Positions 1-2,657 of a DNA stretch of 8,137 bases are shown in pieces. Made by a program: the position numbers and the translations under genes. This DNA comes from Synergistetes bacterium JGI 0000079-D21 (GTDB lineage: Bacteria; Synergistota; Synergistia; Synergistales; 79-D21). Below the pieces are notes generated by a model. That model worked only from the letters and a program-made list of their open reading frames with translations. It did not search any database and had not been told where the DNA came from. The stretch is taken from the NCBI GenBank assembly GCA_000402835.1, contig AQRZ01000051.1, positions 1 to 8,137 on the forward strand, in the 5' to 3' direction. The first letter of the stretch is position 1. Every line of letters starts with the position of its first letter.

Positions 1-95
1 TGGCTTTTTTGGAACGCGTTGCGAAGGGGCTCGACGGCGTTTTTCCGGAAATCGTCTGCGAGCTCAAGATCGACGGCCTAGCGGTTTCTCTCCTT
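1..95 (+). repeat. Left arm of exact 95-bp inverted repeat (ligA codons around the active-site lysine)
   Basis: Base i matches the complement of base 2378-i for every i from 1 to 95. The first mismatch is base 96 (T) against 2282. The arm covers ligA residues from about 95 to 125, including the KIDG motif. It starts exactly at the window edge, so the true repeat could be longer if the source sequence continues to the left. Confidence 0.97.
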
Positions 96-1757
96 TACGA
101 GGATGGGGAATTTGTCCAGGGCAAAACGCGTGGAGACGGCTGGGTAGGTGAGGATGTCACGGAAAACCTCCGCACGATCCGGTCTCTCCCGTGCAGCCTC
201 CAGGGGGAGGTTAAAGGCTCCCTGGAGGTGCGCGGCGAGGTCTTGATGAAGAAGGCCGATTTCGAGGCGCTGAACCGAGAGAGGGAAGAGTCGGAGGAAC
301 CTCTTTTCGCCAATCCGCGCAACGCTGCCGCAGGATCCTTGCGCCAACTTGATCCGAGAATCACGCGCTCCAGGCGGCTCGGGATTTTTCTCTACCAGGT
401 GGTTCATCCCGAGGCCCGAGGGCTGAAGACCCAGTGGGACGTGCTTCGATGGCTCGAGCAATGCGGTTTCCCTGTCCAGAAGACGGAAAGGGTCTGCCGC
501 GATGCCTCGGAAATTTTCGACTACATCGAGGAATATCGCGAAAAACGTCACCAGCTCCCCTACGGCACGGATGGAGTCGTCCTCAAGGTCAATCGGCTCA
601 GTGACTGGCAAAGGCTCGGAGAGACCTCGAAATCCCCCCGTTGGGCGATTGCTTTCAAATATCCGCCCGAAGAGAAAACGACCCGAGTGGTTGACATCGC
701 CGTTTCCGTGGGCAGAACGGGAGCCTTGACCCCAGTGGCGGTCCTGGAGCCAATCGAACTGGCTGGAACGGTCGTCCAGCGAGCCAGCCTCCACAACGCC
801 GACGAAGTTGCCCGAAAAGACGTTCGAATCGGTGACCGGGTGGTCGTCCGAAAAGCGGGTGAGATCATCCCCGAGATTGTTCGGGTGGAAACCCGATTAC
901 GGGACGGAAAAGAAAGGATTTTCCGGATGCCGCAGAAGTGCCCGGACTGCGGGTCAGACGTCGTACGCCTTCCCGAAGAAGTTGCAGTCCGGTGTCCCAA
1001 CAGGAACTGCCCGGCCCAGATCAAGGAAGGATTGCGGCATTTTGGTTCTAGAAGCGGGATGGATATTCGGGGTCTCGGTGAAAAAGTGGTCAATGCCCTT
1101 GTGGATCAAGGCCTTGTCAAGGACCTGGCGGACCTGTACTTTCTGCCGTTGGAGTCGCTGGTTTCGATTGAAAGGATGGGGGAGAAATCTGCGTCGAACC
1201 TCCTGGAGGCCATCCAGTCGAGTCGATCGAAACCCCTTTCAAAGCTCCTGGCCGCTCTCGGGATTCGATACGTTGGGACCAGGGCGGCGCAGGTGCTCGC
1301 CGAAGCCTACGGATCGATGGACCTGCTTGCCGAGGCCTCGATCGAGGAATTGTCGGCCCTGGAAGGTATCGGGCCAAGGATCGCCGCTTCGGTCGCTTCC
1401 TTCTTCAGGGACCCCCAGAACCGGTCGATGCTCGAGAAATTCCGTAAAGCCGGGTTGAAAATGGAGGAACCCCGAAGGGCCCCGGTTGAACTTTCCGATA
1501 CCCCTCTTCGGGGCAAAAAGGTTGTCTTTACGGGGGAACTGTCAACCATGACACGAACGCAGGCTCAGGCCCTGGCCAGGGAACGGGGGGCTTTGCCGGT
1601 CGACCATGTCGGAACCTCCGTAGACTATGTCGTGGTCGGAGAAAAGCCGGGAAGCAAGGCGGAAAAGGCTCTCCGGCTCGGTTTGACCATTCTGGATGAA
1701 AAAGGATTCCTGCAGCTGTTGCAAGGCAGCCCTGGATCGGACAAGGAGGAAACCTAA
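3..1757 (+). CDS. ligA: NAD-dependent DNA ligase LigA, C-terminal 584 codons (5' part displaced)
   Basis: Seals nicks in duplex DNA using NAD+ in replication and repair, in the cytoplasm. The frame is open from the window edge and lacks the N-terminal NMN-binding Ia domain, which lies inverted at 2283-2657. Numbered on the rebuilt 678-residue protein, visible motifs are the adenylated lysine in KIDG (K116, codon 66-68), [12 protein letters not shown] (about 136), EVRGEV (about 169), [14 protein letters not shown] (about 198), [10 protein letters not shown] (about 282) and WAIAFKYP (about 308). An OB fold follows, then a Cys4 zinc finger (C407, C410, C425, C430), helix-hairpin-helix repeats (about 445-565) and a terminal BRCT domain (about 593-668). 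The TTG at base 9 is an internal leucine codon, not a start. The TAA stop overlaps the gatC ATG by one base. The family call is certain; the isolated fragment would not make a working ligase. Confidence 0.97.
1743..1749 (+). promoter_or_regulatory. Ribosome binding site of gatC
   Basis: AAGGAGG lies 7 bases before the gatC ATG, inside the last codons of ligA. It is a near-perfect Shine-Dalgarno sequence and fixes the gatC start at 1757. It also supports co-expression of gatC with ligA. Confidence 0.85.
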
Positions 1758-2077
1758 TGCCCATCGGGAAGGATGAGATCCTGCGAATCGCGGACCTGGC
1801 CCGTCTTTTCGTCAGCGAAGAGGAAATCGGGCCGCTACAAAGGCATCTCAACGGGATACTCGAACACTTTGAACGGTTGAAGGAACTGGACCTCGAAGGG
1901 ATCGACCCATTTGCCGTCGAGTGCGACACCGCGGGCTCAAGCCGGCAAGATGCAGTATCGTTCTGGCCGGGGAGGGAAGATGTCCTGGCGCAGGCCCCAA
2001 ACCGAGAAGGGGATTTTTTCCGTGTTCCGCGGATCCTCGATGAAAGCGACGAGGTGCATCTCGATGAATGCCGCTGA
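1757..2077 (+). CDS. gatC: Aspartyl/glutamyl-tRNA amidotransferase subunit C
   Basis: Small structural subunit of GatCAB, which converts misacylated Glu-tRNA(Gln) or Asp-tRNA(Asn) to the amidated form. GatC wraps around GatA and stabilises its contact with GatB. The product is 106 residues, slightly longer than the usual 95 or so. The family pattern is clear: an N-terminal helix with IADLARLFVSEEEI (about 11-24), then LNGILEHFERLKELDLEGIDP (about 31-51), and the typical C-terminal segment with REDVLAQAPNREGDFFRVPRIL (about 72-93). The start is set by a strong ribosome site and a one-base overlap with the ligA stop. The last 14 bases overlap gatA. The gene is intact and lies wholly on the inverted segment. 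The residues after RVPRIL are a short acidic tail not needed for the family match. Confidence 0.95.
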   Translation: MPIGKDEILRIADLARLFVSEEEIGPLQRHLNGILEHFERLKELDLEGIDPFAVECDTAGSSRQDAVSFWPGREDVLAQAPNREGDFFRVPRILDESDEVHLDECR

Positions 2078-2300
2078 AATGGCCAAGGCGGTTAGGGAAG
2101 CCAAAATCTCCGCCGTTGAAATCGCTGAGGGTGCGATTGGAAGGATACGCTTGATCGATTCCGACGTCCGGGCGCTCTTGACCCCTCTTTTCGAACGGGC
2201 ACTGGAAAAAGCGGAGGAAATTGACAGGAAAATCGAGCTGAAACAGGATCCGGGACCCTTGGCCGGAGTTCCCGTCATCGTTAAGGAGAGAAACCGCTAG
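2064..2300 (+). CDS. gatA: Glutamyl-tRNA(Gln) amidotransferase subunit A, broken after codon 74
   Basis: GatA is the amidase-signature subunit of GatCAB that releases ammonia from glutamine. The ATG at 2064 overlaps the end of gatC by 14 bases, with GAGGTG 7 bases upstream (2051-2056). Residues 1-74 fit the family N terminus: NAAEMAKAVREAKISAVEIAE, then GPLAGVPVIVK, where K74 is the expected catalytic lysine of the Ser-cisSer-Lys triad. Native GatA would continue with an aspartate codon (GAC or GAT). Here the next bases are reverse-complement ligA sequence, which adds only Glu-Arg-Asn-Arg before a TAG stop (2298-2300). Roughly 400 residues, including both catalytic serines, are missing. I take the break as a junction artefact rather than a natural pseudogene. 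No gatB is visible. Confidence 0.9.
   Translation: MNAAEMAKAVREAKISAVEIAEGAIGRIRLIDSDVRALLTPLFERALEKAEEIDRKIELKQDPGPLAGVPVIVKERNR
2283..2287. other. Inversion/chimera junction with AAGGA microhomology
   Basis: Left of this point the sequence is gatA on the + strand; right of it is ligA on the - strand. AAGGA can belong to either parent. It fits the conserved Lys-Asp codons of GatA (AAG GA.) and the complement of ligA at 91-95. Just outside the core there is further partial similarity, one mismatch and then three matching bases. Both genes lose their frames exactly here. Confidence 0.92.
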
Positions 2301-2377
2301 GCCGTCGATCTTGAGCTCGCAGACGATTTCCGGAAAAACGCCGTCGAGCCCCTTCGCAACGCGTTCCAAAAAAGCCA
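2283..2377 (-). repeat. Right arm of exact 95-bp inverted repeat
   Basis: This is the exact reverse complement of bases 1-95, separated from that arm by 2187 bases. It lies within the displaced 5' piece of ligA, whose sequence continues naturally to the right (2378-2657) into the N terminus. No repeat-like low-complexity sequence, direct terminal duplication or recombinase gene accompanies it. Confidence 0.97.
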
Positions 2378-2657
2378 GGACATCCTCCCTGGAAAACGCG
2401 TTCTCCAGGCTGAGCATCGGCACGTCGTGCGCGACCCGCACCATCTCTTCCCTCGGGGGTCCTCCAACTTTTCGGGTCGGAGAGTTTTCCGTGACGAGGG
2501 AAGGGAACATGTTTTCAAGCTCGATCAGCCTGCGCATCAGGGCATCGTAAGCGTCGTCCTCGATTTCGGGGGAATCCTTCACGTAGTAGAGAACATTGTG
2601 CCGGGCGATTTCCTTTCTAAGTTCTTCCACCTCGCGCCGGGCTTCTTCAATGTCCAT
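2283..2657 (-). CDS. ligA: NAD-dependent DNA ligase LigA, N-terminal 125 codons (3' part displaced)
   Basis: This piece encodes the start of LigA: the Ia domain that binds the NMN half of NAD+, with EIARHNVLYYVKDSPEIEDDAYDAL (about 16-40) and the conserved Tyr, His and Asp residues. It is followed by SPTRKVGG (about 59-66), HDVPMLSLENAF (about 77-88) and the nucleotidyltransferase motif ELKIDG with K116. The ATG at 2657 lies 12 bases after the lysS stop. A GAGGG ribosome site (2667-2671) overlaps that stop, so translation is probably coupled. After codon 125 (2283-2285) native ligA continues at base 96 on the + strand, in the correct frame, giving 125 + 553 = 678 residues. Past the junction the - strand frame stays open to 1848 but reads antisense gatA and gatC, which is not real protein. 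Confidence 0.95.

Follow-up and report, generated by a model that had tools for sequence, protein, structure and literature searches.

The stretch of DNA analysed here (the window; 8,137 bases, 58% G+C) raises the question of whether an essential gene, ligA, has really been split in two by an inversion. Read on the minus strand from its right end, the window carries comEA, comEC, coaX, a tRNA-dihydrouridine synthase gene (dus), lysS and the start of ligA; read on the plus strand from its left end, it carries the remainder of ligA, gatC and the start of gatA. We find that the window contains an inverted duplication that its own edge interrupts, not a gene split by inversion, and that the split ligA is almost certainly an artefact of laboratory copying and assembly, produced by a copied strand folding back. 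Near-identical intact forms both of the ligase and of the broken neighbouring gene are known, which makes the case an ordinary one.

The two ligA pieces together encode one complete NAD-dependent DNA ligase. The minus strand carries codons 1-125 at 2657-2283 (MDIEEARR...DGLAVSLL; NCBIfam NF005932, 127.4 bits, profile positions 2-118), and the plus strand a 553-codon piece, codons 126-678, at 96-1757 (YEDGEFVQ...PGSDKEET; NF005932, 696.8 bits, profile positions 120-664 of 664). Re-deriving the reading frames returned exactly the LigA coordinates and the codon count (125 + 553 = 678) of the original prediction. Its claim that both pieces make up a single LigA is likewise borne out, as the two pieces in series are identical at 676 of 678 residues to the intact 678-residue LigA P0001, a database protein listed without a source organism that differs from the window LigA by two residues, both within the second piece. 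All LigA domains were found across the two pieces with the NCBIfam LigA model and Pfam; compared with LigA in general, only the layout in the window differs, with no sign of a true gene split. The idea of a gene cut into two pieces, by contrast, stands only in its codon coordinates, for the plus-strand frame does not begin at base 96. It continues leftwards, open from base 3, and is native ligA reaching back to codon 95, giving an uninterrupted run of codons 95-678 plus stop on the plus strand at 3-1757 (NF005932, Pfam ligase domains, P0001). This copy is uncut at base 96, its sole cut being the window edge, and LigA codons 95-125 are present twice, in the plus-strand left arm and in the minus-strand piece.

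At the DNA level the duplicate is exact. Bases 1-95 match the reverse complement of 2283-2377 at all 95 positions, and the identity ends at 96 and 2282. The left arm (1-95, plus strand) carries ligA codons 95-125 in the native frame and is cut by the window edge; the right arm (2283-2377, minus strand; also inverted repeat I1) carries the same codons. Under a simple base-composition model about 10^-48.6 inverted repeats of 95 bases would be expected by chance, and a chance origin was rejected. The original prediction had taken 96-2282 to be inverted relative to 2283-8137, and a simple inversion of that segment, whether in the cell or by misassembly, has some appeal: reversing it joins ligA in frame and brings every gene onto the same strand. 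Inversion, however, leaves its borders unduplicated and would place the remainder of the partner gene at each of them, yet from base 95 leftwards the window repeats ligA 2283-2377 exactly. With ligA at 1-95, where an inversion predicts gatA, this reading is contradicted; turning 96-2282 round would still leave gatA truncated and the 95-bp ligA duplicate unexplained, and we regard a simple inversion as extremely improbable.

The gene really altered at the joint is gatA. Its codons 1-73, truncated at the joint (2064-2282, plus strand), are identical at 73 of 73 residues to the intact 485-residue GatA P0122, which after residue 73 reads KDNLCMRG, as against KERNR and a stop codon in the window. 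P0122 was found on 17 contigs, the longest of 80,374 bases, and Asp follows Lys in 106 of the 106 GatA relatives that match a search pattern for this motif (120 listed from 8,000 scored, the other 14 of the 120 being without a pattern match). The two genes meet at AAGGA (2283-2287), a motif that the window and the DNA of relatives place both in gatA and on the opposite strand of ligA. Natively, gatA continues after AAGGA with C or T, completing an Asp codon, where the opposite strand of ligA has G; ahead of AAGGA, gatA has T and ligA has A. The microhomology is 5 nt, or nine of ten positions with one mismatch, its gatA side being derived from the P0122 protein and the relatives' DNA. The joint is clean, with this 5-nt microhomology and no spacer, and the segments it joins lie about 2.2 kb apart.

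We used a contig scan to compare the window with the loci of relatives, covering the best 79 of 535 confirmed relatives. In 78 of these 79 loci the N- and C-terminal LigA pieces are consecutive on one strand, and the exception, L030, starts inside ligA. The order lysS-ligA-gatC-gatA, an intact form of which the original prediction had suggested seeking in relatives, is colinear in 16 of the best 79 loci (with lysS partial in some). These 16 all belong to the 21 loci with Synergistota titles; the remaining five have ligA alone (L008), no gatA match (L010, L014) or a cut at the contig end (L030, L031). The nearest of the best 79 loci, L001 and L002, come from Synergistaceae metagenome-assembled genomes (MAGs; LigA 86 and 85%) and show the complete comEA-to-gatA order; with the family matches in the window, they uphold the predicted order comEA-comEC-coaX-dus-lysS-ligA-gatC-gatA. 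Within the window, gatC lies at 1757-2077 on the plus strand (TIGR00135, 69.8 bits; cut-off 47.1) and lysS at 2670-4184 on the minus strand (NF001756, 687 bits), where the trunk common to both fold-back arms would start. The native flank of dus, coaX, comEC and comEA follows at 4183-8057 on the minus strand, identified by the order in L001 and L002 and by family matches; for comEC, comEA and dus, the score against the best full-length model stays under the curated cut-off.

Two proteins of this flank merit separate mention. The dihydrouridine synthase (4183-5163, minus strand) scores 168.9 bits against DusB, whose model cut-off is 293.3. The ComEC-like protein is short, with 474 residues (5962-7386, minus strand), and matches positions 70-385 of 663 of the ComEC/Rec2 model at 70.7 bits (cut-off 190.05); this short form looks native, because proteins of L001 and L002 match it over residues 1-474.

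Aligned to L002, the window falls into two opposite-strand alignments, window 3-2287 on the plus strand and 2287-8135 on the minus strand, which overlap at L002 6001-6089; this is the pattern of a fold-back rather than that of an inversion. A fold-back at 2283-2287, with the sequence ending part-way through the duplicated arm, explains the window in full. The relatives also bear on a reversible DNA switch, in which 95-bp inverted repeats around an invertible segment would turn ligA on and off. Such repeats do border 96-2282, but gatA is truncated in both orientations and one repeat is no more than a fragment of ligA; both genes occur intact elsewhere, as P0001 and P0122 show, and ligA is contiguous in all but one of the loci compared. 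With gatA broken either way round, a phase-variable ligase switch was rejected, and we give it next to no credence.

We assign a probability of roughly 0.92 to the window deriving from a laboratory-made fold-back molecule, most likely formed during phi29 multiple displacement amplification; a chromosome with intact lysS-ligA-gatC-gatA is part of that explanation and is held with equal confidence. The earlier suspicion that the window misrepresents the chromosome is supported. In the proposed sequence of events, a polymerase would copy the native lysS-ligA-gatC-gatA region. Some 75 codons into gatA its displaced 3' end, terminating in AAGGA, would pair with a TCCTT of ligA that lay about 2.2 kb back along the locus, on another displaced strand close by. 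Extension of the annealed end would copy ligA and lysS back towards comEA, and the product would be a near-palindrome consisting of a trunk, a 2.2-kb loop and an inverted trunk. Given short reads from it, a de Bruijn assembler would then merge both copies of the trunk and output the loop with one trunk, starting at a shared vertex in ligA that, for k = 95, would fall exactly at window base 1.

The joint can be compared with what is reported for phi29 chimeras in the portions of the literature available to us. In single-cell amplification of E. coli, inverted chimeras made up 406 of 475; most joined sites separated by less than 10 kb, and complementary stretches of 2-21 nucleotides served for priming (PMC1855051). 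Elsewhere, chimera overlaps were mostly 5-8 nt and distances ran from 0 to more than 5,000 nt and were most often 250-300 nt (PMC4595205), or the preferred distance was 80-280 nt with overlaps of 12-13 nt (PMC5372508). The window shares with these chimeras an inverted second segment of the same locus, a distance of about 2.2 kb (below 10 kb), a short complementary priming stretch, here of 5 nt, and an intervening sequence that is lost or looped (PMC1855051; PMC4595205). As far as these excerpts go, the joint lies within the published ranges and off their peaks (PMC1855051, PMC4595205, PMC5372508): its 2.2 kb exceeds the most frequent chimera distances (PMC1855051; PMC4595205), and, counting against a fold-back by phi29, that distance is far from the reported peaks and 5 nt is below 12-13 nt (PMC4595205, PMC5372508). 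The chimeras in those reports are known from reads of known samples, whereas the window is known from assembled sequence alone. We infer that the sample had been amplified with phi29.

The position of the window's first base is consistent with the assembly step. When the fold-back is represented as a toy de Bruijn graph, k = 95 gives a loop piece that corresponds to window 1-2377 and breaks exactly at base 1, whereas for k = 33, 55, 77, 99 and 127 the loop piece starts at 63, 41, 19, -3 and -31. Among the sections of published methods at hand, SPAdes was run with -sc -k 25,55,95 in PMC11253033 and PMC7065516 and with k 22,55,95 in PMC7490370; these three reports, with the -sc mode and a maximum k of 95, concerned amplified single cells and mini-metagenomes. 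The list 25,55,95 is the one that JGI habitually uses (PMC11253033, PMC7065516). The corresponding sections of PMC10224968, PMC6424206 and PMC9894930, two of which are single-cell papers, give no k list. The k-95 pipelines also trimmed 200 bp from contig ends (PMC11253033, PMC7065516, PMC7490370, as far as their methods were available), so a match at k = 95 needs an untrimmed deposit. We infer the assembler type, its k and the identity of the window start with a contig end, and take the agreement at k = 95 as supporting, not as proof.

Palindromic amplicons of the tandem-inversion-duplication kind can arise in vivo by template switching, and bacterial examples have been published. A real inverted duplication of this kind, a palindromic amplicon of lysS-ligA-gatCA formed in the sampled cell by a template switch at AAGGA, would give the same joint and the same duplicate as an amplification chimera and would be indistinguishable from it in the window. 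Nor would ligase be lost: the arm continuing beyond the left edge would carry an intact ligA, and the cell would be viable. Against such an event, the ending of the sequence at exactly one k-mer length (k = 95) from the joint is a feature of an assembler, and an exact inverted repeat of at least 40 bases occurs in only one of the 79 loci (the best 79 of 535), L003, where the joint lies elsewhere and looks technical. We judge a real duplication highly improbable and, in the choice between phi29, another technical fold-back and a real palindromic duplication, the least likely of the three.

The L003 palindrome (JADLKH010000005.1, a Synergistales MAG; loci L086 and L087) reaches the first base of its contig and pairs 1-15155 with 15511-30663 at 99.95% identity, with no mismatch and six gaps; within the lysS region, some 355 bp of spacer separate the arms. 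It is probably a long-read fold-back that duplicated ligA, gatC, gatA, part of lysS and more. It resembles the window in that an inverted duplicate reaches the contig end through lysS-ligA-gatC-gatA; it differs in its 15-kb arm, its spacer, its single-base gaps and its joint in lysS. Since the joint lies elsewhere and the gaps resemble long-read errors, the L003 palindrome and the fold-back of the window are separate events. A search of four relative genomes for a second ligA that might cover for a split one gave one ligA match each in G001, G002 and G004 and three in G003, two of the latter being the arms of its contig-end palindrome. The third, on another contig (L085, contig C3, 2186-3889, minus strand), is 63% identical to P0001 over residues 1-562 and contains three in-frame stop codons; it may be a pseudogene, a stretch rich in sequencing errors or a foreign contig.

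The 15,155-bp arm of L003, gapped six times but free of mismatches, is what a long-read fold-back is expected to produce, and it lends some plausibility to the window having folded back by a technical route other than amplification, such as library ligation or a long-read hairpin. The window joint, in contrast to the spacer-bearing one of L003, is a clean microhomology, and we consider such a route highly unlikely. Fold-back of a copied strand during amplification, followed by assembly, is the explanation we prefer.

No biology is changed by this locus. It is an example of how the fold-back of copied DNA can give an apparently split essential gene, and the signs of the artefact can be read from the sequence itself: an exact inverted repeat that reaches the end of the sequence, a joint with microhomology at which a second gene is also broken, and a repeat length that is a plausible assembler k.
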